Below, piece by piece: positions 2,222 through 61,744 of a stretch of 64,000 nt of DNA. The notes beneath the pieces are model-generated. The model had not been told where the DNA came from, did no database searches, and saw nothing but the letters and a program-made list of their open reading frames with translations. Position numbers and translations under genes: made by a program. The DNA is from Amaurobius ferox (Eukaryota > Arthropoda > Arachnida > Araneae > Amaurobiidae). Each line of letters begins with the position of its first letter. Position 1 is the stretch's first letter. Where the stretch lies: the NCBI GenBank assembly GCA_951213105.1, contig OX578136.1, positions 75,447,230 through 75,511,229 on the forward strand, read 5' to 3'.

Positions 2222-2339
2222 GCCAACGGCCGTACCGTGCTGAAAACACCGGTTCTCGTTAGATCACCGAAGTCAAGCAGCATCGGGCGCGGTTAGTACT
2301 TGGTGGGTGACCACCTCGGAACGCCGCGTGCTGTTGGCC
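2222..2339 (+). rRNA. 5S rRNA-derived SINE head (not a genuine 5S gene)
   Basis: About 118 nt that align end to end with animal 5S rRNA: the 5' end gccaacgg pairs with the 3' end gctgttggc (helix I), and the middle contains gatcaccgaagtcaagcag and ggttagtactt, the internal control region bound by TFIIIA/TFIIIC. It differs from the copy at 8592-8709 at several sites and lies inside a target-site-bounded SINE, so it is a retroposed derivative. Confidence 0.85.
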
Positions 2340-2609
2340 ATCTCGGGTGCGGTATCCCCGTGGTTTGCGCGCTAGATTTGCACGCTGCCACATATGCCGC
2401 CGTGTTCATGCGGAGTACGATCACGTTAAACATGTGGGTCCGTAAGTCCTTCCGAGAGGTTGGTGGTAGGGGAAGGAGGGTACGGTCCCTGTGGATGCCT
2501 CCCCCACTGGGTTCCGGTCTAAATTGGGTGGCACTTCCCGGCCGTCCATACAGTTACCTTACACCTTTCTGGTAGGTCGGACGGTCTGGGTCATCAACAT
2601 CAACATCAA
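2222..2609 (+). mobile_element. Composite 5S rRNA/tRNA SINE, copy 1
   Basis: A 388-bp retroposed unit: a complete 5S rRNA-like head (2222-2339), a short linker, a tRNA-like A-box region (about 2345-2380) lacking the B box, a body shared with all other SINEs in the window, and a tail of about three (ATCAAC) units. The target-site duplication is direct: ccccacttattca at 2207-2219 and 2610-2622, in LINE DNA. It therefore moved as one unit, with 5S as its true 5' end. Open frames across it recur in other copies only because the SINE sequence recurs. Confidence 0.9.
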
Positions 2610-3080
2610 CCCCACTTATTCAGGAAACTAAAATTAAAGAAAATAAATATCTAGATATTGCAAACAACAATTGTTACTAAAACTATAGCAATTCTAACGT
2701 GATTGTAGGGCGATCCAAAGAAGAACAGCGGTATATATAAATAGAAGTATTCCCTGCGATGTAATTAAAAACTTAAATCTGCAGTGTATGGAAAATATTA
2801 GTATTAAAATAAAAATTGAAGATCTTGACCCTTTAGTGATAACTCCTATATTCTCCTACCTATGTTAGGCATCTTAAAAACTATAATGCAAATGCAGTGC
2901 ATACTTTTCGAACACGATATTATGATGCAATAGGACTCTTAGTTTCTTTACAAAGGTACATCGTTATTTACAGAGGTAAGTGGAGTGCGAAAAACAGCGT
3001 ATTCACAATTTCAAGAATGTTGACGTATAAGAAATGTTGGTCTCTGATAATGGCATCTTTGGGAAATTAATTCTATTGTT

Positions 3081-3464
3081 TTCTACCGTACCGGTCTTTG
3101 GGATAATGCCAAATTTTGTAATTATTAGTAAAACTGTGGATTAGCATTCACCAATTGGAGAGTAAATTATTTCATGCATATATTACCATCTTGGAATTCT
3201 ACGATTTACCAGTCATCATTTTCTGAAAAATGTGCATACAAAACAATAGGGCATTATCCCAAAAACCGGTATGGTCTTGAATTTGGCGACTTTTCTGGTC
3301 CCCGATGTTGAGATAGTTGCCATAGTATCCAACCAACTCGCCAGGTTACCATGATTATGAAGAGTTAAAGAGTTACCAAGGTCTCAACATAGCACTCCTC
3401 TTATCGCCGATTTGGCGCGATAAAAATAAAAACTACCGTACAGGTAGGTCTCTGGGATTTAGCC
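3081..3464. repeat. Inverted repeat set at a local inversion beside zinc-finger gene A
   Basis: Three related motifs: taccgtaccgg..ttgggataatgcc at 3084-3110, its reverse complement at about 3250-3277, and a weaker direct copy at about 3434-3464. The 51 bp at 3111-3162 are the exact reverse complement of 27170-27220 in the paralogous duplication, while DNA on the far side (from about 3467) is collinear. This fits an inversion between terminal repeats of a small DNA element. Its superfamily is not recognised. Confidence 0.5.
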
Positions 3465-3912
3465 TAAAAGTTAATTTAAAAATTCTTATTGCTATACACA
3501 TTTTTTATACTAAAAATAAAAGAATTTTGGGACCAAATCACATTTTAACCACACAAGTCAGTAAAGAATTAATTGATTTCGCCCCTGAGAAAATATCTAT
3601 ACAATTGTTAAACATTAAAATAAAAGATAGTAGAAAACAAAAATTAGATTTTATTGATATTGGGAAGATAAACATCCTTAAATTGATCATTACAATTCAT
3701 ATTGGTGCTTGCAGACAATTTCTAAATATAACAGAATATGAAATTTCGTCAAAATTAAAATACGATTACATTCCACATTTCATAGTAAAAAATAAAATAA
3801 GAAACAATAAAGCTATGTTCCGAAACAGTACATTGTCGTCCAAATGGACTCATTCATCAGCTGGCAAGTTTTCGGCTTCTGTTTCTGGATCATTAATGTA
3901 AGAGGGATTTTT

Positions 3913-5448
3913 TTATGTAACTTTTTCCAATAAAGAAGCATTTACTTTCTTAGCATGTGATGCAATAGAAATATGTGTTTGATATGGTATAGTTCCTGTA
4001 AATTTCTTGTTACAAATTTCACACGACGATTGTTTAATTACTTGTGGAATATTAGATTTCAAGGAAAACTCGGCACGATTCATCAAAGAAAATTTGTTAA
4101 ATAAATGAGCATTTACTTTTTTAGTATGTGATGAACTCGAAAGATGAGAGTCATATGGTATGAGTCCAGAAAATTTTTTATTGCAAATCTCACAAGACAT
4201 CTGTTTATCCCTATCGGTAGTATCATTTCCCGTTTTTAATTCTGGGTGAATTATTACATCACCTTTGGCATACCTGAGCTTCAACTTTAAGTTAATGACA
4301 GTGACGTGTTTTTTGTGCACTTTACTAACCATATGTTGGTCATAAGGAATCGGTCCGGAAAATGCTTTATCGCATATCCAACATTTAAAAATTTCCACTT
4401 GAACTGCTGGATTTTCTGCAGGAATGACCTTAACCCCCTTGTTAAATAAATGAGCATTTACTTTTTTAGTGTGTGATGAACTCGAAAGATGAGAGTCATA
4501 TGGTATGAGTCCAGAAAATTTTTTATTGCAAATCTCACAAGACATCTGCTTATCCCTTCCGGTAATATCATTTTCCGTTTTTAATTCTGGGTGAATTATT
4601 ACATCACCTTTGGCATACCTGAGCTTCAGCTTTAAGTTAATGACAGTGACGCTTTTTCTGTGCACTTTACTAATCATATGTTGGTCATAAGGAATCGGTC
4701 CGGAAAATGCTTTATCGCATATCCAACATTTAAACATTTTCACATGAACTTCTGGATTTTCTGCAGGAATGAGCTTAACCCCCTTGTTAAATAAATGAGC
4801 ATTTGCTTTATTAGTATGTGATGAACTCGAAAGATGCGAATTATATGGTATGAGTCCAGAAAATTTTTTATTGCATATCTCACAAGACATCTGCTTATCC
4901 CTTTCAGTAGTATCATTTTCCGTTTTTAATTCTGGGTGAGTTATTGCATCACCTTTGGCATCTCTGAGCTTCAGCTTTAAGTTAATGACAGTGGCGTTTT
5001 TTCTGTGCACTTTACTAATCATATGTTTGTCATAAGGAATCGGTCCGGAAAATACTTTATCGCATATCCAACATTTAAACATTTCCACTTGAACTTTTGG
5101 ATTTTCTGCTGGAATGACCTTAACACGAATATTCTTTTTGTGACCTGTACTGTAAATATGATCCATGTAACACTGTGGTTCATTAAACAGTTTACCACAA
5201 ATTTTACATTCAGCATATTGAAGCATTTTCATTGAAGATTGACCGGAACTGTTTGAGGCAGTCCCAACCTTCATTTGACCATCTAGGGAATTTTCTGTAT
5301 GAGGACCATTCTGTTCACTATCTTCATTTTCGTAACTTGACTTCACTCTCTTAGCAACTTGATCAGTTTCAGATATATTACCTAATAGTTTGCGCTTAGG
5401 TGAAATGTATTCTTCATTTTCAGTTTCTGAAATCTTATCTGCAGTCAT
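3913..5448 (-). CDS. Zinc-finger protein A, eight U1/JAZ-like C2H2 fingers
   Basis: Intronless frame of 511 codons from the first in-frame ATG (5446-5448); a TAA lies in frame just upstream. Eight fingers fit C-x2-C-x12-H-x5-H, the spacing of U1-like/JAZ (ZNF346, ZNF385) fingers that bind double-stranded RNA or act in nuclear RNA binding. The first starts at residue 81 and is followed by alternating CWICDK..HMISKVH and CEICNKKF..HLSSSSH fingers. An acidic/basic N-terminus carries NLS-like SPKRK (16-20) and KRVK (33-36). A 345-bp two-finger module is repeated three times. The paralog at 27599-28501 has one module. Relative to it, a TCA-to-TAA change ends this protein about 20 residues early. 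The host function is unknown; RNA or DNA binding is an inference from the finger type. Confidence 0.75.
   Translation of the reverse strand: MTADKISETENEEYISPKRKLLGNISETDQVAKRVKSSYENEDSEQNGPHTENSLDGQMKVGTASNSSGQSSMKMLQYAECKICGKLFNEPQCYMDHIYSTGHKKNIRVKVIPAENPKVQVEMFKCWICDKVFSGPIPYDKHMISKVHRKNATVINLKLKLRDAKGDAITHPELKTENDTTERDKQMSCEICNKKFSGLIPYNSHLSSSSHTNKANAHLFNKGVKLIPAENPEVHVKMFKCWICDKAFSGPIPYDQHMISKVHRKSVTVINLKLKLRYAKGDVIIHPELKTENDITGRDKQMSCEICNKKFSGLIPYDSHLSSSSHTKKVNAHLFNKGVKVIPAENPAVQVEIFKCWICDKAFSGPIPYDQHMVSKVHKKHVTVINLKLKLRYAKGDVIIHPELKTGNDTTDRDKQMSCEICNKKFSGLIPYDSHLSSSSHTKKVNAHLFNKFSLMNRAEFSLKSNIPQVIKQSSCEICNKKFTGTIPYQTHISIASHAKKVNASLLEKVT
4090..5124 (-). repeat. Three tandem 345-bp two-finger modules inside zinc-finger gene A
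   Basis: Each 115-codon unit runs from a V-K-x-I-P-A-E-N-P motif through one CWICDK finger and one CEICNKKF finger. Unit boundaries are marked by the phrase taaccccctt at 4431-4440 and 4776-4785, exactly 345 bp apart. Units differ by few substitutions and no frame-breaking indels, so the expansion is recent or homogenised. Confidence 0.9.
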
Positions 5449-6026
5449 ATTTTCTTGAATAGTAACGCTTTTCAATGCGTTTTACACTTGAGCGTTATCG
5501 TATTCAAGAATTTAATAAAAGTTAAATAATATGAGATGTATACTGGATGATCAATGATTTGGAAACGGAAAATTGATAGAAATTAGAACTAATCGATCTA
5601 AATCCGAGCGCACTAGAGTTGAGTTGTTGCAAACCTGAATTGAAAATTGAGAAATTGTGATTTAACTGATCTATAGGTGACGCTGATGTTAGACAACAAA
5701 CAAAGGCCGCGTGCAAAATTCAGCATGAAAGCGTGAATAGATTGTTACCGTTTTCCAATGAATTTTCATCTTGATTATAGAAGATAGTTTCAATTATATT
5801 TTTAATAGTGTAATTTTCTTAATTATTAAAAGCTCGCCAAACAGTTGGACGTGGTATTTTGCTAACTGAGCTGTGTTGACCATCTTTTCCATTGACAATT
5901 CACATGACATATAGGTGACGCTGATGCTAGACAACAAACAAAAGGGGCTTAGCATAAGGACATGAATAGATTGTTACGGTAATGATTTTTCATCCTGAAT
6001 AGAGTAACTAATATCCAATTATTTTT
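5449..6026. other. 5' flank of zinc-finger gene A, shared with gene B
   Basis: About 550 bp upstream of the gene (minus sense) match 28502-28853 and then, after an H1 insertion there, 30676-30900. It may contain the promoter or an upstream non-coding exon, but no TATA box, splice site or other element can be assigned confidently. Confidence 0.6.
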
Positions 6027-6842
6027 ACTTTCCCTGCAATACATCGTAATGTATAGGGAAAGTATTGGAATCATGTCGAAAATCGCAACTCGAGTTTTCG
6101 ACGGATCTACACGTTTCGAGACCTCTAAAATACGAAAAAACTATTTTTAGCGTCTGTGTGTGTGTCTGTGTGTCTGTGTGTCTGTCTGTCTGTGTGTCTG
6201 TGTGTCTGTGTGTCTGTCTGTGTGTCTGTCTGTGTGTCTGTCTGTCTGTCTGTGCAGATTTTGTATCCACTCTAACTAAAAAACTAATTGACCGAATTTC
6301 ATAAAATTTGGTAGGTAAGTCACTTGTGCACGAATCTTGTGCTGATTAGTTTTTGGTATGATTCGGGTTAAAAGAACCCGCCTTTTTTGCGAAATGGCCC
6401 TCAAAAGCTTGTATCCACTCTAACTGAAAAACTAATGGACCGAATTTCACAAAATTTGACAGATAAGTCGCTTGTAGGCCACCCTGGTGCTGATTAGATT
6501 TTGGTACAATTCGAAAAAAAATAACCTGCCTTTTTTTGCAAAATGGCCCGCAAATATCATCAAAATCTAAACTTAAGAACTACGTATGCTCAAATATAGC
6601 CATTAAATGCTTGTTTAATACATAATTTTTAGCGGAGAAAAGAATAAGACCAACCCCATTACACTAGATCTAGCCGTTCTCGAGATATTTTAGTTTTTCG
6701 TATTTTTCCTACACCTTTTTTGAAAATAAGTCCAGTTTTCAAATGAGAACGAAAATTGAATTAAAAGTGAAATAAATTTAATTAAAATAAAGAGAACGTG
6801 GATATAAGTCTGCAGGGAAAGTCATGTGCTGCCCACATCAGA
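6027..6842 (-). mobile_element. H1-family hairpin element, complete, first of a tandem pair
   Basis: Plus-strand left end is the hairpin actttccctgcaatac...gggaaagt; the right end is agggaaagtcatgtgctgcc...catcaga. The stem sequence actttccc recurs about 20 nt inside the other end, giving an asymmetric terminal inverted repeat. A GT/GTCT microsatellite (6155-6252) sits just inside the hairpin end. With the next copy it interrupts zinc-finger flank A; the empty site in copy B (about 30895-30905) is an uninterrupted run of seven T. Strand follows Helentron convention with the hairpin as 3' end. Confidence 0.8.
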
Positions 6843-6847
6843 TTTTT

Positions 6848-7606
6848 ACTTTCCCTGCAATACATGGTAATGCATAGGGAAAGTTTTGGAATCATACCAA
6901 AAATCACAACTCGAGTTTTCGACGGATCTACACGTTTCGAGACCTCTAGAATACGAAAAAAACATTTTTAGCGTGACATCTGTGTGTGTGTCTGTGTGTC
7001 TGTCTGTCTGTCTGTGCAGATTTTGTATCCACTCTAACTAAAAAACCAATAGACCGAATTTCACAAAATTTGGTAGGTAAGTTACTTGTGGGCGAGTCTG
7101 GTGCTGATTAGTTTTGGGGACGATTCGGGATAAAAGAACCCCCCTTTTTTGCGAAATGGCCCGCAAAAGTTTGTATCCACTCTAGCTGAAAAACTAATGG
7201 AGCGAATTTCACAAAATTCGGTAGATGAGTCACTTATAGGTCACCCTGGTGCTGATTAGATTTTGGTACGATTCGGAAAAAAATAACCTGCCCTTTTTTG
7301 CAAAATGGCCCGCAAAAATTGTCAAAATCTGAACTAAAAAGCTACGTATGCTCAAATATATCCATTAAATACTTCTTTAATACGTAATTTTTAACGAAGA
7401 AAAGAATAAGACCAACGCCATTACACTAGGACTAGCCGTTCTCGAGATATATTAGTTTTTTTCGTATTTTCTCCACGCCACCTTTGAAAATAAGTCCAGT
7501 TATCAAATGAGAACGAAAATTGAATCAAAAGTGAATTAAATTTAATTAAAATAAAGAGAACGTGGATATAAGTCTGCAGGGAAAGTCATGTGCTGCCCAC
7601 ATCAGA
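6848..7606 (-). mobile_element. H1-family hairpin element, complete, second of a tandem pair
   Basis: Starts with the same hairpin only five T residues after the first copy and ends in the same catcaga terminus at 7606, followed by seven T and then the host flank. A shorter GT/GTCT array is at 6980-7016. Both copies point the same way, as expected for head-to-tail rolling-circle products or two insertions into the same T run. Confidence 0.8.
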
Positions 7607-8573
7607 TTTTTTTATATTAGTGTCAGACTACTGCAGCCTTCTAACATTCTAAAATATGCAAATTGGCTGACTCTATGGAAGCGGCGAATTAGGCATACCA
7701 AATATAATACAATTACATTTGTTCAAGAATGCGAATATAAACTCATATATGTACATATAAATGTAAGAAAAATTATAAAATTAACATAAAATAATCGGCT
7801 CATAATATCAATTCAGGGATTTTAAGAATTCATGTTGACCATATCTAGTCATTACTCATAGAAATATGAAATTTAGTATGTTGTCATGTTTTGCGGTATA
7901 TTTTAGTTTCATTCATATGGATGAACTAGTTTTGGGGAATAACTCGAGAATAGCAGCAGCTATAACGTCCAAATTCAGTAAGTAGTTTCTTTTTATTGTA
8001 TATGTTATTTTTGTGATGTTTTTTTCTGTTCAACCATGTTTGTATATCCGTTTTCTTGTAGATGCCTTTGAAATGTTTTCTTGTAGGTGCTTTTAGAATG
8101 TACATTATGATAAGGAGAATTGTCAATTGCAGGACACTTTTCTTGATGGGCTTTCATTCCAGTTGACGAAATACTTGAAAAAGCTTGTTTCTCAGATTGA
8201 ATTGTGGGGAATGATGGGAATACAACTATGTTGGGTAAATAAATACAGAATATCAAATCACAGATCAAAACTAAACTGATTAATAGAATAGACGATCTAA
8301 GATTTGGCGTAGCTGTAAAAGAATAAAAATTTATCCAAATCTGCCGCTATTAATAAGGCGAAAATAAATTTAGATTATTTATTTTTTTTTTAATTTAAAA
8401 TATATTTGTATCCTGTCGGGTATGCATTTAGGGTGAAATTTTCTGAAAATTTCAAATCCGTTTAAATTTTGGTTCTATCTTTAATAGTTTTAAAAATAGA
8501 AAGTTTGACTGCAAAAAAATAAATAAATTATTACTTTTGCATAAACGATTGCGGTTCCCTGCATAGGTTTTCC
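7607..8573. other. Intergenic; first part shared with 30905-31260
   Basis: 7607-7945 matches the flank of duplication B and has no convincing coding sequence. From about 7945 to 8270 there is an unmatched stretch with an 87-codon minus-strand frame (8005-8268) showing a hydrophobic N-terminus and some Cys/His residues but no recognisable domain. 8270-8573 is AT-rich with nothing identifiable. Confidence 0.5.
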
Positions 8574-8591
8574 ACACGACGATTTCTCGCA

Positions 8592-8709
8592 GCCAACGGC
8601 ACTACCGTGCTGAAAATACCGGTTCTCGTTAGATCACCGAAGTCAAGCAGCATCGGGCGCGGTTAGTACTTGGGTGAGTGACCACCTGGGAACACCGCGT
8701 GCTGTTGGC
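8592..8709 (+). rRNA. 5S rRNA-derived SINE head (not a genuine 5S gene)
   Basis: Full-length 5S-like sequence with paired ends (gccaacggc / gctgttggc) and the internal control region agtcaagcagcatcggg ... ggttagtacttgggtgagtg. By eye it is closer to functional arthropod 5S than copy 1. No terminator T-run follows; transcription would read into the tRNA-like part and SINE body. Confidence 0.85.
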
Positions 8710-8980
8710 ACATTTTGGACGCGGTAGCCCGGTGGTTTGCGCGCTGGATTTGCACGCTGCCGCAACTACCGCCGTGTTCATGCGGAGTACGATCACGCTA
8801 AACATGTGGGTCCGTAAGTCCTTCCGAGAGGTTGGTGGTAGGGGAAGGAGAGTACTGTCCGTGTGGATGCCTCCCCCACTGGCTTCCGGTCTAAATTGGG
8901 TGGCACTTCCCGGCCGTCTAAACGGTTACCTTACACCTTTCTGGTAAGTCGGACAGTCTGGGTCTCAACAACAACAACAA
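8592..8980 (+). mobile_element. Composite 5S rRNA/tRNA SINE, copy 2
   Basis: Same layout as 2222-2609: 5S head (8592-8709), linker, A-box segment tagcccggtgg without B box, shared SINE body and a (CAA)n tail. The target-site duplication acacgacgatttctcg (about 16 bp) is seen at 8574-8589 and 8980-8995. Two independent insertions with the same 5' end show that the 5S portion is a fixed part of the element. Confidence 0.92.
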
Positions 8981-9392
8981 CACGACGATTTCTCGTTAAG
9001 ATCAAGCCAACTAGTTTTGCCATGTACGGGGGGGGGAGGGGGATACAAATATTTCACTCTTACCACTATATGAAAAAACATTTAAATTTTACCATAAATT
9101 TGTTTATTTAATCTTTCCATTTGTTTTGTAGTTGAAATATTAAATAATTCTGGCTGAATTTTTTTTATTAACTCTTGTGATGCTTTATTTCTTTTGGCGG
9201 AAGAATAAATTTCGTACCTTCTACTCCACTACAGTTAAGTACATGTAGATCGTCAAGTATAGATCTGTGCTAACCGTCTAAACTGTCAAAGCCAAATATG
9301 TATGATAATGCCACATTAGGAGTTTTAGACTATATAAAATTGTAAAACAAATATTTTGAAATCCCTATAGTTATCAGTGATGTAAAGTAAAA

Positions 9393-17739: not shown

Positions 17740-17760
17740 TATTTAATATAACCTAAATGT

Positions 17761-18048
17761 TGTTGTTGTTGAAACCCAGACCGTCCGACCTACCAGAAAG
17801 GTTTAAGGTAACTGTTTGGACGGTTGGGAAGTGCCACCCAATTTAGACCGGAACCCAGTGGGGGAGGCATTCACAGGGACCGTACCCTCCTTCCCCTACC
17901 ACCAACCTCTCGGAAGGACTTTCGGACCCACATGTTTAACGTGATCGTACTCCGCATGAACACGGCGGCAGTTTTGGCAGTGGCTGGAATCGAACCCGGG
18001 CCTACCGAGTGCAACTCCAGCGCGCTAACCAATGGGCTACCGCGCCCC
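17761..18048 (-). mobile_element. tRNA-derived SINE with intact A and B boxes
   Basis: Minus strand: head gggcgcggtagcccattgg (A box, complement of 18029-18039), then ggttcgattcc (B box, complement of 17986-17996), the shared SINE body and a (CAA)n tail. Target-site duplication taacctaaatgt at 17749-17760 and 18049-18060. There is no 5S part. The body is nearly the same as in the 5S composites, making it the best model of the pre-fusion element. Confidence 0.88.
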
Positions 18049-19267
18049 TAACCTAAATGTTGTAGAAAACTTGATCTCATCAAGGATTGCGCAGGAATGA
18101 ATAAAAATGTCAAGCTCCTTAGTTTAAAGGCGTGAGCAGTCGCATTATAAAGCGGTCCGTACTTCCAGACTTTAATTAGTTCGAAGCGCATGGGTATGAT
18201 CTGATAAGTAACCTCATTTTTTGAGATGAGAGGAATACCAGTATACCAGGAGAAAACGCGTTATAATGTCAATAGATGGCGTTAGTAGTCAAAAATAAAA
18301 GGGTGCGTAAATCAGTGCAGATCCGCTAGGATGACTATAATATTTGAAGGCATATTTGGCTAAAAAAATTATAATTAACCAACGGATGGGTTTATGAATT
18401 TTTTCTGGAGTGGTCTGTGATATATTTAGGAGCTGCTGTTAAAATATAAACATTGGATGGCATTTCAAATTTTGCAAATCTTAATATAAAAATCTGAAAG
18501 ATTTCAAAAGCACTTAAAGTATATATATATATTTAAAGGTTCAATAAAATTTGTTTATTGGTCGTAAGGACGCCATTCAAAATTTGTTTACAGAAAATTT
18601 TTCGATTTTTTCTACGGTGTTAAGATAGAAACACTGTGATAATATTTTAGGTCGTTAAGGAATCGGTTTGTGTAAATATCGGTCTAAATAAGGGTAAAAT
18701 ATAAAATAACTAAAAAACTAATAAAAAAAAAAAGAAAAAGCTGAGGTGCACCTGTGTACTTCAAGAAGTACCTGTGTAGCAAATTTTATGGTCGTACGAC
18801 ACTCAGATTTCTCGCTATAAATTGCACACACAAACATCTTCCTTTAATACTTAAGACGATGCAGGGAAAGTAATATACTATGCATGCAGAGAAAGTTATA
18901 ATATACTTTGTATGTAGGGCAAGAAGTAATATCCCATGTACGTATGTAGGGGAAGTGTACTATGTATATAGGGGAAATACAAAATGATGAAATCTTTCAA
19001 TAAATAGAATTTCTTAGCAACACCATTAATAGCAAAACCTCTTTATACATTACACATTCATTTCTTTTCGTTGTGCATCAAAAATGTCTCCTCGAAATAA
19101 GTTTTTGAGCGCTGTTTTACAAATAATGTACCACTCTCTCGAATATTCTCATTTGCAAATGCAAAAATAGCAATTTATTCTGCAAATAAGACAAAGTTCT
19201 TCATTTTTTCCTTTCCGGACAAATAATGATGAATGCCTTGGATTTCTAATCTACTTATACGTCAAAA

Positions 19268-20790: not shown

Positions 20791-21498
20791 CAATCAAATT
20801 TGTATACAGTATCTTTATTATTTCTTGGAAATATGTTATTTTGGATTGTTGTTTTGGTTTTCTTTCTTTTTTAAAGTAACTAAATGAAATGTACAACAGT
20901 TCGATTCTGTAAAGTGGCGCAAAGCCTTTTTCATGAACTGAAGGACAAAAGCAATTTTAAGCGTCAAGTTCAAGAACGTTTCACATATTATGTTATTAGA
21001 AATTTCTATGTCACTAGGTTAGATGTGATGAAATTACGATTTTAATATACAATCGTACGTAATTATGAAATAATTCAACTTTTGGATCGAGCGATCACTA
21101 TTGTAGAACTAATAAATTCTTGTCAGTTGTAAGATGACATTAATTTGTTTCTTCATGACATTAATTTGTTTCTTGATGACATAAGATACATAAGATGACA
21201 TTAATTTGTTTTTCGATGACATGAGATGACAATAATTTTTTTTTAGAAAGTTCAAGGTGTGGAAAGGAAAATTGTTCTATGGAACATTTAATGCTACTTC
21301 GAGTTATAAATACCTCTTTCGTACTAGAATGTTGAATCTCGATCGAGTCAGAGAAACTGGATCGACGAATGATTACATGGAATAGAACGAGATCGAGTTC
21401 GATCAACTGATTAACACCTCCTAGGGTTCACCCGAAAGACTCTAGGAAGTGTTGGTTCGATTTCCTTCTAGGAGGTGTTGGTTCGATTTCCTATCCGA

Positions 21499-21785
21499 GG
21501 CAGGATAGCCCAGTGGTTAAGGTACGGGGATTGCACTCGGACGGCTTGAGTTCGATTCGCGGCACTTTGCAATCTATTCCCGTGTTTACGCGGAGTATAG
21601 GCACGTTAAATCTGTGGGTTCGAAAGTCCTTTACGGAGGTTGGTGGCAGAGAAAACAGAATATGGTACCTGAGATGTTGCCCCCACTGGGTTTTGGTTTA
21701 AATTGGGTGGCACTGCCTCGGTCATCCAAACAGATATCTTACACTTTCGACTTTTTTTAAGTTAGACGGTCTGGTCGAAAAGAAA
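21499..21785 (+). mobile_element. tRNA-derived SINE, second subfamily
   Basis: Head ggcaggatagcccagtggtt (A box) and gagttcgattcg (B box) followed by the same body as the other SINEs (ggttggtggcag, cccccactgggtt, taaattgggtggcac) and a GAAAAGAAA tail. The orthologous copy is at 43791-44065, so it was inserted before the segmental duplication. Clear target duplications are no longer visible. Confidence 0.8.
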
Positions 21786-23371
21786 AACAAATCTCTTTCG
21801 AAATTTTCGATCCAAGTTGGAATATCACCATCTTGCAGTTTATCCCGTTCTTTCCGCCGATTTTGTTCCTCTGGCTCGATTAGGATCCAAATTTCCAGTG
21901 AGAATAAGGTATTATGCTAAAAATTCGGTTTATGAAATTTAAAATGTATTGAAAATAGAAATTTTGAACAAAGCCTCGAAAATCTTCGAATTATAGAAAC
22001 ATTTAATTTATAGAAGTTCAAGTTAAGGAAGTTATATTTGATTTAAGTATACACTTATGTTTAAACCATTGGTATAAAACGTTTTAAGGGTATATGTGTA
22101 ATTGCTTAAAACTAAAATTTTGAAGGAAAAATATGTATATGAAATGCATGTTTTCTATTAAACCCTTTTTTTAGACAATTACTAATTGTTCTTAGTTTTT
22201 GTTCAAAAATATGTTTCTTTTTAAATCTTCAAAATATATATAGGTCGCTTAGTGAGGAAAGCAGTATGTTCTACAGTATGAGATGTCCATTTAATAACAT
22301 ATAGAATGCGAAAAAAATAACGTTAAATTATGTTTTTAATCTCAAAATTAACTTTTCTTTCCTCCTAGAAATAAACAAACAATTAATAGTGCCTGGATTT
22401 TTTTTAGCTCTTTATAAAATAAAAAAAAATACTATATGCAAGTCGTCAGACGATAATGGATTTAAAGTCAAACAATTTTTCTCTCTTCTGAGTTTTTCTT
22501 TTTAACTTTTACAACTGAAGTGAAAGTATTTCATGATAACAATCTTTACCATATTATTTTTCTCTTTCCAAGAAAAAATAGTTAAAGTTTCGGCTTTCCT
22601 TGAAGATATGGATGCATTAAGATAAAATCAAATAATAAAAATTTTTGTAGATAATGAGTTTAAAGTTAGGATACACGCTTTTCTATCTCGTCCTAATGGT
22701 GTTAAAGATTTTCTTCAACTTTCCTAATTTAAGTAGACAAAGTAATATAAGAGGATTATTCATTTTTGTAGAATAGTAATAAAACATAAATTTGATGGCA
22801 TCAATAACTTTTTAAGACGTTAAAACTGTTTAACGTTTTCAAAGGAATATTGAGAAAATAATTACATTTCATTGAAAATATGCTAAGTTATATAGTCGAT
22901 ATATCTAACCGTTATATTAATTAAAACCAGAATTTTGTTGCATTAGTTGCCATCATAAGAGCCTTAGTTGAGGTATTCTTCTGAAATCGGAGTGTTACGA
23001 AATATGTAAACAGTTTGAATGCTCATAACACAAATTCCTGAATACGTGCTTTTTATTTTTTTTTCAGGAGGTATTTGGTGTTTTCACTAAAATTAAATTA
23101 AATGTCTATCTTAGAATTTCTGAACGTTTCTTGTTTATCAATTATATTTCAAGTTCTAATTTAAGAATATTTGTGAAAATATTAGTCGTATTTTTTAGAA
23201 ATTCCCATCTGGTGAGAATAAAAACTATTATTCCTTAACACGGGATTATTTTTTCATATTTAAAACTTTTCGTAATCAAATGGAATTTTCTTTATTGTTT
23301 GCATTGATTGTCTTGGAATTTTAGTCAATTTGATATTCTGCGCAGAAATATGTATATTCTAAGATAAAAAA
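21786..23371. other. Non-coding part of duplication copy A
   Basis: AT-rich, collinear with 44066-45320, 46528-46728 and 48970-49184. No frame, RNA or repeat of its own could be supported. Confidence 0.6.
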
Positions 23372-24499: not shown

Positions 24500-26616
24500 G
24501 ACGTTAAGTAATTTAACACCTATCCACTGTTTCATAATAATAGATTAATTTTTCTGGCTTTTAAAGCCAAGTATTCGGTTTTTATTGCAGAATCTGAAGT
24601 AATATCAAAGTATATTTTTAAGTTATCCAGTAGATCGACTTTTTTGGGCGTTGCATATTTTGGTATAATAATTTCAATAGATGAAAAACATTTTGTCATT
24701 TTCATCAAATCGGATTTGTAATTGTGAACTTAGTTCATCCAAACATGGTAAAAATATCGCACGTCTGTAGTACTGTTCTGGTGTATCAAATATGGATGAT
24801 TATCTCGAGCCTCAAGCAACAAGAGAGAGCAACCGCGAATGAAAATTTTTACTCATTATAACAGATGCTGCTTTAAATGTTTCAGTGAAATAACTGTCAA
24901 AGGATTTGTTTCTTATATCTTGCAGTTTTTGCGTAACACTTTTTGCATAATTTAAAGCCGACGATAGATCGTGAGATGGATTTTGAAGATAAAGTGACAA
25001 AGGCAAAGTAAAACTAAGAAGCTTTTCGCATACCAAAAGAGAAACTAAAAATGAGCCTTTTTCAATTGCTGAAAGTAAGAGTTTTGCAGCAGTTGAAACA
25101 CTTTTATTTGATTCGGTTATTTCTTGTAAACTAGGAACAATTGCGTCGAATAATTCGACGAAAGCAGTAATCGCTTCTTGTCTTTCCACAAATCGTGTTT
25201 CACATAATTTACCTTTTCTACTGTCTGGAAGAAAATAGTTAATGTTATTTTTTAAAATATTGCCTGCATAAGTATTATTTCGAGATAAATTGCATATTTC
25301 GCTGATAGTACCATTGCAATTTCTAATAAATGGAATTGATAGAGATAACGGCAAAGCAAGATTCAAACGATGATTGGCACAATGAACGTACACAGCTTTA
25401 GGATAAATTTCTTTTAAATTTGCCTGAACGCCATTCATTTTTCCTCTCATATTGGCCGTTCCATCATAACCTTGCCCGACAAGTTTGTTCATGTCAAGTC
25501 CTAGATGTTGGCACTGATTTAAAACAGTGTTGGGCAGTCCTTTTGCAGATAAATCGAACACTGGAACGAAGGTCAAAAAATGATCGCATAATATATTATT
25601 TACGTTCACATACCTAACACACAATGAAAATTGTTCAACACCAGAGATAATTAAGGTTTCGTTAGCTAAACTACCCTGAATTGTCGACTTCGTCGACAAT
25701 GCTTTTCTGAATGATATTTTCACAAATTTCAAGTATTTCGTTTTGAATAATAGGACTAACGTAGGATGCATTTTTTTTTTTAAATTTAATATATGTTGTT
25801 TTAATGTTTCATCTCCCAAATTTGCGCTGAAGCGTAACAGAGTGCGAAAATTTCCATCATTATTTTCCGGTCTTCCTAAAATTAGAGGACCACGGATCTT
25901 CATCCCCACGAATTGCAATTTTTTGTTGTCCACAAAAAATTAGCGACTGAATTATTGGCATTGCAGCAGCTCTATTTTTTTCACTTTCTTTTTTGCGATT
26001 ACTATCAATTATTTTCGCAATATGTATTTTCTCTCTTGCCATACTTGAAAAATTATTAGCTACAATTTCACATTTTTTGTGATAAGATGCACTTTGATGC
26101 TCATTAAACTATTGAATCGCATCTTTCCATTTTATGAAAGGATTAGTAACAAGAGAGCCAATATTTTGATGTGATCCTTTCTCAACAGCTTCTCCACAAA
26201 AAAATACACAATATTTACAAAATGATCATCATAAATTTTGGAATATGCCAGCCATCTTCATTTTTTTAACCAATGATGCTGAAATCTTAAACTATTTTTA
26301 CTAATTTCACGCACAGGGAATATGTGACTTTCAGTAGGAACGAATATGTTGTTTAAGAACTACATTCTTAATTCTTGTGTATCGCAATTCGATGAAAAAT
26401 TTCATTTGCTATGTCTCCGATATCCTTAACGGTTTGCGAACAGTCAAAATTGTTAGCTGGTGATGTGCTGCCAGCTTCATTTGAAGGATCTGAAGTGACG
26501 AATTTCTTCAACGACAGGAATTTCCTTTCTTTTACTGCTGCTAGAACAGGGCGTATCGTCCTGACACGATGTTCCACATATCGGCTTGAAAAACTATCAA
26601 TTCGGGTTCGTTTCAT
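24500..26616 (-). pseudogene. hAT transposase relic (ZMYM1/P52rIPK type)
   Basis: A decayed transposase in several frames. The N-terminus starts at a true ATG (26616) with MKRTRIDSF and continues to about 26368. A TTF-type zinc-finger region in shifted frames follows (about 26340-26040, with FVEKL and HQSASYHKK-like phrases), then the best-preserved core at 24812-25933. Past 24812 a further frame shows YYRRAIFLPCLDEL, a phrase found before the dimerisation region of this family, then decays. Stops and shifts break it at least four times. No terminal inverted repeats could be paired around it, although a MITE with the expected hAT ends lies at 31418-31655. Confidence 0.75.
24812..25933 (-). 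pseudogene. hAT transposase core segment
   Basis: A 373-codon open stretch opening without an ATG, so it is an internal piece. Recognisable motifs: GVEQFSLCVRYV (about 98-109), GQGYDGTANMRG (153-164, containing the second catalytic Asp), HCANHRLNLAL (184-194) and ETRFVERQEA. The first catalytic position, normally Asp in a 'DET' motif, reads ANET (Asn 91), so the enzyme would be inactive even if the frame were whole. The C-terminal catalytic Glu region is outside this frame. Confidence 0.8.
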
Positions 26617-27598: not shown

Positions 27599-28501
27599 TC
27601 ATTCATCAGCTGGCAAGTCTTCGGCTTCTGTTTCTGGATCATTAATGCAAGGGGGATGTTTTGATGTAACTTTTTCCAATAAAGAGGCATTTACTTTCTT
27701 AGCATGTGCTGCACTAGAAATATGTATTTGATATGGTATAGGTCCTGTAAATTTCTTGTCACAAATTTCACACGACCATTGTTTAATTACTTGTAGAGTA
27801 TTAGATTTCAGGGGTAACTCGGCCAGATTCATCAAAGAAAATTGGCTAAATGAATAAATCTTTAATTTATTAGTATGTGATGAACTCGAAAGATGCGAAT
27901 CATATGGTATGAGTCCAGAAAATCTTTTATTGCAAATCTCACAAGACATCTCCTTATTTCTTTCGGTAGTATCATTTTCCGTTTTTAATTCTGGGTGAAT
28001 TGTTACATCACCTTTGGCAGCTCTGAGCTTCAGCTTTAGGTTAATGACCTTGACGTTTTTTCTGTGCACTTTACTAGTCATATGTTGGTCATAAGGAATC
28101 GGTCCGGAACATGCTTTATCGCATATCCTACATGTAAACATTTCCTGTTGAACTTCTGGATTTTCTGCACGAATGGCTCTAACACGAATCTTCTTTTTGT
28201 GACTAGTACTGAAAATATGAGACAGGTGACACTGTGGTCCATTAAACCGTTTATCACAAATTTTACATTCAGCATATATCTTCATTGAAGATTGACCGGA
28301 ACTGTTTGAAGCAGTCCCAACCTTCATTTGACCATGTGGTAAATTTTCTACATGAGGACTATTTTGTTCACTATCTTCATTTCCATAACTTGACTTCACT
28401 CTCTTAGCAACTTGATCGGTTTTAGACTCAGTACCTGATAGTCTGCGCTTAAGCGAGATGGATCCTTCACTTCCAGTTTCTGAATTTTTATCTGCAGTCA
28501 T
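27599..28501 (-). CDS. Zinc-finger protein B, four U1/JAZ-like C2H2 fingers
   Basis: Intronless 300-codon frame starting at ATG 28501 (MTADKNSETGSEG); an in-frame TGA lies just upstream, as in gene A. Four C-x2-C-x12-H-x5-H fingers: CKICDKRFNG, CRICDKACSG, CEICNKRFSG and CEICDKKFTG. NLS-like LKRR and KRVK lie in the N-terminal 40 residues. The C-terminus is intact to DLPADE, about 20 residues beyond gene A. The second finger has Cys in place of the usual Phe (KACSG), which may weaken folding. It holds one two-finger module against three in gene A. Both paralogs have kept open frames despite many substitutions. Function unknown; nucleic-acid binding is inferred from the family. Confidence 0.75.
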   Translation of the reverse strand: MTADKNSETGSEGSISLKRRLSGTESKTDQVAKRVKSSYGNEDSEQNSPHVENLPHGQMKVGTASNSSGQSSMKIYAECKICDKRFNGPQCHLSHIFSTSHKKKIRVRAIRAENPEVQQEMFTCRICDKACSGPIPYDQHMTSKVHRKNVKVINLKLKLRAAKGDVTIHPELKTENDTTERNKEMSCEICNKRFSGLIPYDSHLSSSSHTNKLKIYSFSQFSLMNLAELPLKSNTLQVIKQWSCEICDKKFTGPIPYQIHISSAAHAKKVNASLLEKVTSKHPPCINDPETEAEDLPADE

Positions 28502-28853
28502 ATTTTCTTGAATAGTAACGCTTTTCAATGCGTTTCACACTTGAGCGTCATTGTATTCGATAATTTAATAAAAGTTAAATAAAATGAGATGTGTATTAGA
28601 TGATCAATAATTTTGAAATGAGAATTGATAGCAATTAGAACTGATCGATCTAATCTCGAGCGGACTAGAGTTGAGTTGTTGAAAACCAGAATTGAAAATA
28701 GAGAATTTGGGATTTAACTGACTTATAGGTGACGCTGATGCTGGACATCAAATAAAGACCGCGTGCAAAGTTAGCATGAAAGCGTGAATAGATTGTTGCA
28801 GTTTTCAATTAATTTTGATCCTGATTATAGAAGCTAATTTCCGATTATTTTTT
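28502..28853. repeat. 5' flank of zinc-finger gene B
   Basis: Matches 5449-5810 upstream of gene A and continues, after the H1 insertions, at 30676. No promoter motif is assignable. Confidence 0.7.
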
Positions 28854-43790: not shown

Positions 43791-44065
43791 GAGTGGGATA
43801 GCTCAGTGTTTAAAGTACGGGAATTGCACTCGGAGAAACTGAGTTCGATTCCCGGTATTTCCCAATCTATCCCCATATCTAAGCGGAGTAAGGGCACATT
43901 AAATGAGGGGGTTCGAACGTCCATTCGAGAGGTTGGTGGCAGGGGAAGCAGGGTACGGTCCTTGGGATGTTGTTCCCACTGGGTTCCGGTCTAAATTGGG
44001 TGGCACTGCCCCGGCTGTTCTAACAGATATCTTACACCTTCGAGTAGGCCGGCCGGTCTGGTCGA
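43791..44065 (+). mobile_element. tRNA-derived SINE, second subfamily (copy B)
   Basis: Head gggatagctcagtgtttaaa and gagttcgattcccgg, body and GAAAAGAAAG tail as in 21499-21785; the same insertion inherited by the duplication. Confidence 0.8.
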
Positions 44066-45296
44066 AAAGAAAGAAAATATATCTTTCGAAATTTTCGATC
44101 CAAGTTGGAATATCAGCATCTTTGAGTTTTGTTGAGATGTCGATGTTTCAACTTTGATTCATATTTTTGAATCAACTTTGCAAAAGGGAATTAAATTCTA
44201 TCTCATTGTTTCGGCCGATCTTGTTCCCCTGTCTCGATTCTAGGATCCAAATTTCCAGTGAGAATAAGGTATTATGGTAAAAATTCGATGTGAAAAAATT
44301 CGGCTTATGAAATGAAAAATATATGGAAAAATATAATTTTATGTAAAAATAGAAAGCGTCGAAAATCTTCGAACTATAGAAACATTTAATTTATAAAAGT
44401 TCAAGTTATGGAAGTTATATTTGATTTAAGTATATGCTACACTTATGTTTAAACCATTAGTTTAAAACTTTTTACGGGCATATGTGTAACTGCCTAAAAT
44501 TAAAATTTTGAAAAAAAAAAATATGTATACGAAATGCATGTTTTCTATTAAAGACTTTTTTCGAGTATTGCTAATCGTTCTTAGTTTCTGTTTAAAAATA
44601 TATTTTATTTAAAATCTTCAAAATATTTATCGGTCGCTTGGTGGGGAAAGCAGTGTATTCTACAGTATGAGGATGTCCATTTAATAACATATAGAATGCG
44701 AAAAAACAAAGTTAAATTATTTTTTTAATCTCAAAATTATCTTTTATTTCCTTTTAGAAATGCACAAGCAATTAATATTACCCGGATTTTTTTTTTTTAT
44801 CTCTTTATAAAATAAAAAAATACTATATGCAAGTCGTCAGACGATAATGGATTTAAAGTTAAACAACTTTCTCAACTTTTCTCTCGTCTGAGTTTTTCTC
44901 TTTTTAACTTTTATAACTGAAGTGAAAGTATTTCACGATAACATATTATTTTTCTCTTTCTAAGAAAAAATAGTTCAATTTTCGGCTTTCCTAGAAGATA
45001 TAGATGCATTAAGATAGAATCAAATAATAAAAATTTTTGTAGATAATGAGTTTAAAGTTAGGTTACACGCTTTTCTATCTCGTCCTAATGGTATTACAGA
45101 TTTTCTTCTACTTTCTTAATTCAAGCAGACAAAGTAATATAAGAGGATTATTTATTTTTGTAGAATAGTAATAGAACATAAAGTTGATGGCTGATCAAAA
45201 ATGGATGATCAAAAACTTTTTAAGACGTTAAAACTGTATAACGTTTTAAAAGGAATATTACTTAAATAATTACGTTTCATTGAAAATATTATGCTA

Positions 45297-45701: not shown

Positions 45702-45881
45702 TTCTTCTTCTTCTTCTTCGAGTCAGACTGTCCAACCTTCCGGAAGGTGTAAGGTATCTGTTTGGACTGTAGGGAAGTTCCATCCAATTTAGACCGGAAC
45801 CCAGTGAAAGAGAGATTCTCAGGGACCGTGCCATCCTTCCCTTACTACCAACCAACCTCTAGGAAGGACTTACGAATCCAC

Positions 45882-45930
<49 letters not shown>

Positions 45931-45962
45931 GAGAGAGGAGAGAGAGGAGAGAAAAGAGAGAG

Positions 45963-46017
<55 letters not shown>

Positions 46018-46254
46018 TTCTTATTCTTCTTCGAGTCAGACTGTCCAACCTTCCGGAAGGTGTAAGGTATCTGTTTGAATTGTAGGGAAGTTCCACCCAA
46101 TTTAGACCGTAACCCAGTAAAGGAGGGATTCTCAGGGACCGTACCATCCTTCCCTTACTACCAACCAACCTCTAGGAAGGACTTACGAATCCACATGAGA
46201 GAGAGAGAGAAAAAAAAGGGAGAGAGGAGAGAGGAGAGAGGAGAGAGAAAGAGA

Positions 46255-59958: not shown

Positions 59959-61476
59959 TGAAAGATGTGGCAACATTTCTGGAGGTTTCAAATTCTCTAC
60001 TACAAGTTATAAAAACTTCTTGAATACCTTTTCAGAAAAAATACATGCAATAATAAACACAGCTAAAATGTTGCAAAAATAAGGCATAGTAAGCAGGCGA
60101 GGTGTACGTTTAAAAAATCTTTAGATTTCTTACTTCAATGCGAACAAGCGACGAGCTGAACGCTAAATGAGAGAAAGACTATGCTGTGCAGGCGGCAATA
60201 TGGCTTGATGACAGCACAGAAGACGAAAGAGAAGTAAAATCAGAAAAATCAAATAAAATGTGGAGTATATGAACTCAAATCGCGGAGAAGAAAAGGAGAG
60301 AGACATAGAAAAGATAGCTAAATGGGGTCATGCTGTATCTCAAAAGAAGGAAATCCAAATATTTTCGAAGAAACCTATATCTGCTTACTACAACTAATTT
60401 GCTTAGCATTTTGCGTTGTGATTTAGTTTATTATTGCTTGTGCCAGGGACGCGCATACAAATATTTATCACGGCCTCCTCCATGTTTGATTTCCAACCTC
60501 CTTCTGAATTTACCATGTTTTCTGCCCTCTCTCTATTACAAGAGAGTCACCAGTTTCGAGTGGTGTCTGTCCCTTCTATGTGCAGCAATGCTTGTAAGAA
60601 AGTCACGTTCTATGCTTAGAAACATGCATTTTAAACTTATTCACGTGTATTTATGTAATTCAATTTCCTTTAAATAAAACATCTTAAACATTATAAATGA
60701 AAAATAATATTTTCTGTTATAATTGTTTTGTTACAATATTAAATTCTTAAAATAAATAGACGACTTACATTATCAACACCCACGGAAAACTTTGGTCACA
60801 GTATTGTATTTTCATTAAGAGAAATAAATTACATTTATAGGTCATAGTTTGAACTGTAGATGGCAGCACTAAATTTGAAAATCAGCTCTTGAATAAATGG
60901 TAAACTTCTTGGAATAAACTTAAATCCTACAAACCTGTTTTAGACTGTTTATGAGGCACAAAATGTAAATGCTGCGGGCTGCCATATACAACAAACTTTT
61001 TTCCAATAGTTGTGGATTTCGAAAGAAAAAAAAAAAAAGAAAGGGGGTGGGGGAGGGTGAAATTGGTCATTTGATTAATCTGCTAGAAGTCAATTATTTA
61101 ACGACCAGGTAAGAAGTTTTAACAAAATCAATTTTTTACAGATTTTTTTCCTATGTTATATGTTTAAAATGTAATGTAATTTTAGTTTTCCATATTTTAG
61201 ATGCAATTAATATATTTTTCTTATAAAGTTGTGTTTTAGTGACGGTTAAATTATTTTGTATATTTTTATTTTACACTATAAAAGTTTTATAAAAGACCCT
61301 AGAATTCACTTTTGTCCAAGGGCCCTAAAAGTCATAAAACTCCCATTGCAGATAATAGCATACATCGATCGGTTTCATGTTTACTATTATGCATAGAATA
61401 GTCAGCACAGAATAGCCGATATCTAAAACCATAGTCAGCATAGAATAGCTGATATCTACAACCAGGGCCCATGTAC

Positions 61477-61730
61477 GGGGTGCGGTAGCCCTGTGGTTTG
61501 CGTGCTGGATTTGCACGCTGCCCCAACTGCCGACGTGTTCATGCGGAGTACGATCACGTTAAACATGTGGATCCGTAAGTCCTTCCGAGAGGTTGGTGGT
61601 AGGGGAAGGAGGGTACGGTCCCTGTGGACGCCTCTCCCACTGGGTTCCGGTCTAAATTGGGTGGCATTTCCCGGCCGTCCAAACAGTTACCTCTCTGGTA
61701 GGTCGGACGGTCTGGGTCTCAACAACAACA
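61477..61730 (+). mobile_element. tRNA-type SINE without B box and without 5S head
   Basis: Starts ggggtgcggtagccctgtgg, then lacks the same roughly 27 nt B-box segment as the 5S composites. Shared body and (CAA)n tail. Flanked by accagggcc[c/t]atg repeats (61461-61473 and 61731-61743), an imperfect target duplication. Its 5' end falls at the start of the tRNA part, not inside it. Confidence 0.82.
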
Positions 61731-61744
61731 ACCAGGGCCTATGA

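Follow-up and report, generated by a model that had tools for sequence, protein, structure and literature searches.

A window of 64,000 nucleotides from the spider Amaurobius ferox (contig OX578136.1, positions 75,447,230 to 75,511,229; "the window" is this whole stretch) contains two copies of a short interspersed element (SINE) that begin with a complete 5S ribosomal RNA (rRNA) and continue with the remains of a transfer RNA (tRNA)-derived SINE, whose parent without 5S was identified in the same genome. As far as the compared copies tell, the tRNA promoter is retained where 5S is absent and dismantled where it is present: box B is absent from all 67 5S-headed copies compared, whereas 52 of the 61 5S-less ones retain it. 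Replacement of the tRNA-type promoter by the 5S one is likely, since two different deletions removed box B and the tRNA remnant then decayed. The explanation favoured here, with a probability of roughly three in four, is that a tRNA-derived SINE gained a 5S promoter by template switching and subsequently lost its own.

The 5S-headed copies, their parent and their dispersal

Copy 1 (2222-2609) and copy 2 (8592-8979), both on the + strand, are 91.8% identical over their entire length. The Rfam model RF00001 (gathering score 38) is matched over positions 1-120 from the first base of each, at 2222-2339 with 100.4 bits in copy 1 and at 8592-8710 with 99.2 bits in copy 2, in agreement with the sequence-only reading of this DNA, which had placed a full-length 5S rRNA at both starts. 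The target-site duplications that it had assigned to each copy were also identified: 14 bp in copy 1 (ACCCCACTTATTCA, 2206-2219 and 2609-2622, or 2610-2622 on the 3' side, as the first A possibly belongs to the tail) and 16 bp in copy 2 (ACACGACGATTTCTCG, 8574-8589 and 8980-8995). Two bases separate the 5' duplication from the first 5S base in both.

Copy 1 comprises the full-length 5S head (2222-2338, the Rfam end at 2339 including the first linker base), a linker CATCTC defined by junction comparison (2339-2344, ACATTTC in older copies), a tRNA-derived remnant with box B deleted (2345-2389), a body common to the 5S-less parent (2390-2536, limits approximate) and a 3' tail module, recurrent in other short SINE-like pieces, followed by (CATCAA)n (2537-2609). 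Alignment to the parent defines the remnant and places in it a decayed A box, TATCCCCGTGG, at 2353-2363 (+). Copy 2 belongs to an older subfamily and presents the 5S head at 8592-8709 (+; Rfam end 8710), the linker ACATTTT at 8710-8716 (+) and, at 8717-8979 (+), the tRNA remnant without box B, the body, the tail and (CAA)n. The CAA-rich tail noticed earlier is thus correct for copy 2, whereas copy 1 carries CATCAA repeats; likewise the tRNA segment is there as an A-box-like stretch, but as a remnant from which box B is gone.

Eight copies of the body lie in the window, 5S being confined to these two. A 5S-less parental SINE with a complete tRNA-like head was identified at 17757-18049 (-), with A box TAGCCCATTGG (18039-18029, -), B box GGTTCGATTCC (17996-17986, -) and duplications at 18063-18050 and 17763-17750. 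The genome searched was the assembly of 3.56 Gb, where 1,773 first-look candidates were obtained with this tRNA-headed query and identity was 98-100% in the 40 of them that were scored. All 42 full-length parents in the loci examined lack 5S and contain box B, and 41 of the 42 have duplications, against 26 of 210 controls; the window copy and locus L061 are one locus in this set. The pair of tRNA-type A and B boxes typical of SINE2 elements is found in the parent and not in the 5S-headed family. The tRNA origin of the parental head is judged on these boxes rather than on Rfam or ARAGORN: ARAGORN identified no tRNA in the window nor in seven loci, and the Rfam tRNA model had no match in the parents L061 and L063, its sole match being sub-threshold (24.5 bits against 29) in the second family described below (family B).

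The search with copy 1 returned 1,104 first-look candidates; all 40 that were scored start at 5S base 1 and reach the tail, at a printed identity of 100%, three extra partial matches being neighbouring pieces, and 29 of the 30 copies fetched had a duplication score of at least 9. The same score was reached by 50 of 54 full-length 5S-headed copies (loci L001-L060, window copy 1 included as L003, and L025 and L029 having common flanks) against 31 of 378 re-paired flanks. Full-length copies with independent duplications support the earlier claim that the composite moves as one unit and is not a chance neighbour. These duplications mostly begin with ACA and are 10-17 bp long. The exact junction TGTTGGC-N(4-9)-GGGNGCGGTAGCCC, a pattern that misses the young subfamily of the window (TATCCCC) and subfamily C described below (CAGCCC), has 7,642 matches genome-wide and none in its reversed control. 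A chance neighbourhood or an assembly artefact would find its only argument in the identical near flanks of L025 and L029; it is refuted by the junction count, with the listed junctions dispersed, and by the independent duplications.

The RF00001 search of the genome gave 104,121 loose first-look candidates, of which 47 were scored, all reaching the cut-off over model positions 1-120. Of these 47, the 33 that were read proved without exception to be heads of SINEs: the 30 fetched loci comprise 22 of the family of the window (family A), seven of family B and one disrupted A copy (L031), and three further loci belong to family B (L111) and family A (L112 and L113). In 90 kb of parent flanks six 5S heads were identified, one cut by the locus end, a density biased by SINE clustering. 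The loose candidates together with these six heads suggest a copy number that could be as high as about 10^5, the number actually counted being the 7,642 exact junctions.

Mean distance from the consensus was 0.16% in young chimeras (n=31) and 0.49% in young parents (n=34), values that are low because the sets were chosen as best matches, and 3.4% in older chimeras (n=27) and 6.1% in older parents (n=7). The consensus sets leave out L003, L029, the window's own entry for the parent (the same locus as L061) and copies short of position 375 (5S-headed) or 280 (parent). Both head types, chimeric and parental, appear to have been recently active.

A search with the tail gave 162 matches, 23 of them without body, which by eye are other short tails or degraded copies; no partner long interspersed element (LINE) was identified among the tail matches, the 23 body-less ones not having been searched for reverse transcriptase. 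A scan of viral contigs with a word of the body gave no match. The flanks of L002, L017, L022, L031, L032, L036 and L050 contain short pieces with much of the tail of about 60 bases (CCGGCCGTCCAAA..GTCGGACGGTCTGGGTC). Serial insertions at one site were also observed, in which neighbouring SINE copies or tails are separated by an identical target duplication (L002, L022, L039, L056, L057, L065, L067, L071, L090 and others, with up to seven copies in L022). At least three copies of the own duplication were found in 15 of 76 loci, some of them trivial (for example L027, nested inside a SINE tail), and a foreign duplication was present in 9 of 380 control loci.

Loss of box B and decay of the tRNA remnant

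The box B comparison comprises 128 body copies with a readable upstream side, classed from all the sequence examined. The 67 5S-headed copies are formed by 62 with deletion 1 (28 bases, box B included), three with deletion 2, which define subfamily C, and two more degraded; L009 and L080, deletion-1 copies in which 5S was recognised on reading, are counted among them. Apart from the 52 with box B, the 5S-less copies comprise eight old, truncated or degraded ones and a single one with deletion 1, located in the window at 61474-61729 (+). This copy begins near the 5S/tRNA junction, is flanked by duplications at 61460-61473 and 61730-61743 (one mismatch) and is most simply a 5'-truncated copy of the chimera. 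The class counts double the window copies (L003, L061) and include six neighbouring parents in L025; excluding L003, L061 and L029 they become 58, 3 and 2 5S-headed copies and 51 copies with box B.

The part of the tRNA that survived the deletions changed further. Between older and young chimeras the tRNA-derived stretch differs at 6 of its 54 sites and the body with the tail at 1 of 194 (p = 0.0005, a post hoc test), whereas between older and young parents the values are 1 of 81 and 3 of 194 (p = 1). In the 5S part of the chimeras 3 of 116 sites changed (p = 0.15 against the body). The A box follows the same series, from TAGCCCAGTGG or TAGCCCATTGG in the parents to TAGCCCGGTGG in the older chimera and TATCCCCGTGG in the young one.

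Several observations weigh against promoter replacement. Box B can disappear without 5S, because at least one of the eight old, truncated or degraded 5S-less copies (L010:3317) has lost it too. The coupling is not absolute either: an exact pattern joining the 5S end to a parent with box B has eight matches genome-wide, of which three combine the 5S linker with an intact parent head, four lack the linker and one has deletion 1 together with a later box-B-like motif. The one read of those three, L116, has a full 5S; the three could represent intermediates or recent exchanges of heads. The window copy at 61474-61729 has deletion 1 without 5S, its truncation being an assumption. The rate test, besides being post hoc, compares subfamily consensus sequences from copies chosen as best matches. 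The 5S head of the young subfamily is itself altered, with the 3 substitutions in 116 sites and a deletion near box C. Finally, the tree of the bodies is a star and no single 5S clade is visible in it.

Some of these points would suit a 5S that is only a passenger, transcription depending on an outside or unrecognised internal promoter and box B being lost by drift. The old copy in L010 fits this idea, and a retroposed 5S may be weak, as type 1 promoters are said to lean more on upstream signals in an excerpt of PMC3272025. The distribution of box B between the 67 and 61 copies argues against it, as do at least 40 near-identical, dispersed young copies with full 5S, nearly all of those fetched having their own duplications, and we regard a passenger role as quite improbable. 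Promoter replacement is the reading retained below.

Junction, source of the 5S head and a second family

In older chimeras the 5S ends in ..GTGCTGTTGGC, followed mostly by ACATTTC and then by GGGCGCGGTAGCCC, the first bases of the parent, so the junction reads 5S-GGC-ACATTTC|GGGCGCGGTAGCCC. Subfamily C has TCTTTTC as its linker. Transcripts of RNA polymerase III (Pol III) end in a run of U, which the TCTTTTC linker resembles, and we infer from this likeness that the linker would be the 3' trailer of a captured 5S transcript. As a U run is typical of the end of a Pol III transcript, the simplest reading is that the reverse transcriptase moved from the parent RNA onto a 5S transcript. The source of that transcript weighs against this: no host 5S array was seen among the 33 RF00001 loci read and 100 listed terminator-pattern matches, and the trailer reading is unproved, as those lists did not yield the host 5S gene. 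The terminator pattern has 2,316 matches, a figure in which overlapping matches may be included twice; slightly more than half of the 100 listed are of subfamily C type, and two of its loci, L114 and L115, were read. The TTTT of the subfamily C linker (L114, L115, L071:1280) could be an internal Pol III terminator. Mammalian 5S/LINE-1 chimeras exist, although typically truncated and antisense according to an excerpt of PMC13174262.

The favoured course of events would start from the tRNA-derived parent, of which near-identical copies remain in the genome. While copying the parent RNA by target-primed reverse transcription, the enzyme would arrive at its 5' end and, to judge from the anatomy of the junction, switch to the U-rich 3' terminus of a transcript of 5S rRNA, giving a product formed by 5S, a short linker and the whole parent. 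The chimera would then be transcribed by Pol III from the internal (type 1) promoter of 5S. The tRNA (type 2) promoter would no longer be needed; box B disappeared through a different deletion in each of two subfamilies, and in the lineage of the window copies the consensus sequences show the decay of the tRNA remnant together with its box A. Insertion would be carried out by a putative LINE whose tail the SINE borrows.

An origin at the DNA level, with a SINE landing directly downstream of a 5S gene or pseudogene and the two then being transcribed and retroposed together, would also join the two parts. Read-through of the 5S terminator could yield such an RNA, and TTTT does follow 5S in subfamily C; but the join lies at the first bases of the parent after a linker of 6-7 nucleotides, no target duplication separates the parts, and the same arrangement recurs in families A and B despite their different SINEs. 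We consider this origin unlikely and template switching the better account of the junction.

Family B carries the 5S head on a different SINE, with another tRNA. Its layout is 5S, a linker CATTT(C)A, a type II tRNA-like head in which both boxes are kept (matching TGGCCGAACGG and GGTTCGAGTCC), a different body and an A-rich tail. The search gave 2,641 first-look candidates, the best 40 of which were scored at 95-100% identity, and the 5S end with the linker was identified in all 20 copies fetched (14 by a strict word test, six by eye). Two relatives without 5S are 74-85% identical.

The presence of 5S on A and B could derive from a single capture; the 5S versions, linkers and box-B deletions in which A and C differ, as well as the 5S of B, would then have arisen through mutation and the exchange of heads among SINE RNAs. 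The linker CATTTC and a CGTTAG stretch in 5S are common to A and B, and the three copies with the 5S linker, a young-type parent and box B resemble recent head exchanges. However, several 5S sites distinguish the heads of A, B and C, the linker of C is TCTTTTC, and a common U-rich linker is also expected from repeated capture of one kind of 5S transcript. A single capture falls somewhat short of even odds in our estimate. Template switching followed by loss of the tRNA promoter is the reading kept for family A.

The body of family B gave a sub-threshold match to the hepatitis delta virus (HDV)-like ribozyme model RF02682 (24.4 bits, E 0.8, cut-off 44); two loci were scanned, with the match in L037 and none in L051. 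A segment resembling an HDV-type core, GGGCGCA .. GGGGCAACGUC..GACGGCUAAG, lies at L037:1729-1795 (+) and in relatives. A P1-P4 fold descriptor with the catalytic C in CxAA, composed by hand once the L037 match was known, matched four of seven full-length B copies and none of four partial or 5S-less relatives; its background was two other matches in 724 kb and two in 3000 shuffles. The HDV-like fold is a lead suggested by these matches and not a finding. A tentative extension, rather less probable than not, is that 5S acts as a promoter cassette taken up repeatedly by at least two unrelated tRNA-SINEs (A/C and B), the tRNA promoter being dismantled separately in A and C and kept in B, which would thus combine the 5S promoter with a complete tRNA promoter and with a self-cleaving fold of HDV-like type. 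The literature search found no published case of these three in one SINE.

The remaining body copies of the window are two older relatives of the parent, with a tRNA-like head, a GAAAAG-type tail and no 5S (43793-44066 and 21498-21790, both +, limits by eye), and two old body-only copies in CT-rich DNA (45724-46197, -), each entered via a long CT run and apparently forming a local duplication. Among other features, two open frames that are related to each other, and in which C2H2-like zinc-finger motifs were recognised by eye, are located at 3913-5481 (-), overlapping three 345-base tandem units, and at 27599-28534 (-). A hAT-like (DUF4371) transposase-like open frame at 24815-25939 (-) had its named best matches in Myzus, Aphis and Trichonephila (aphids and orb-weaving spiders), which fits an arthropod host, although mobile genes tell little about the genome that carries them.

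Relation to known 5S-headed SINEs

The sequence-only reading had considered a 5S and tRNA chimera unusual and perhaps undescribed, which does not hold, as AmnSINE1 of amniotes and HaSE3 of a moth are published. AmnSINE1 is reportedly the DeuSINE of amniotes described by Nishihara et al. in 2006. AmnSINE1 is given as a 5S and tRNA chimeric SINE (PMC12015672) with the order 5S promoter, tRNA-derived region, Deu domain and tail (PMC3234267). Family A presents the same order of 5S-derived promoter, tRNA-derived region, body and tail, and its 5S part followed by a tRNA-derived part is the AmnSINE1-type arrangement; AmnSINE1 is, however, ancient and vertebrate, whereas the Amaurobius ferox family has a near-identical 5S-less parent with which the loss of box B can be directly compared.

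In the moth Helicoverpa armigera, HaSE3 consists of 5S and the 246 bp 3' region of HaSE1, the 3' region being 94% identical to that of this tRNA-headed element, and template switching was proposed (PMC3272025). Our comparison of consensus sequences agrees in finding 5S-headed and tRNA-headed SINEs with a common body and tail in one arthropod genome. From this description we read the tRNA head of HaSE3 as replaced; in Amaurobius ferox 5S was added before the complete parent, whose tRNA head erodes later. PxSE4 and PxSE5 of Plutella xylostella (PMC8010984) and SINE3-1_TC of Tribolium (PMC7245038, PMC3272025) are further 5S-headed arthropod SINEs, compared by description only. The hagfish SINE1-1_EBu is similar in having a small-RNA head on an existing tRNA-derived SINE of the same genome, but the head is 7SL instead of 5S and the partner is RTE (PMC7245038).

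With a full-length 5S at the 5' end and dispersed copies with independent duplications, family A has these two features of SINE3 elements. Zebrafish SINE3, whose 5S head is said to act as a Pol III promoter (Kapitonov and Jurka in 2003), shares that head and was compared by description only. Vertebrate SINE3 families are mobilised by CR1-clade LINEs, as given in the excerpt of PMC7245038. A literature search, with Repbase, Dfam and SINEBase outside it, found no report of the Amaurobius ferox family or of a chelicerate counterpart.

The basic design was already known; what is new is that the 5S head was added and not exchanged for the tRNA head, that the parent survives and that box B was lost repeatedly. 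A probable promoter swap is represented in one genome by the parent, the chimera and the decaying remnant together, and the drive of a SINE by 5S becomes directly testable with near-identical elements that differ mainly in their heads.

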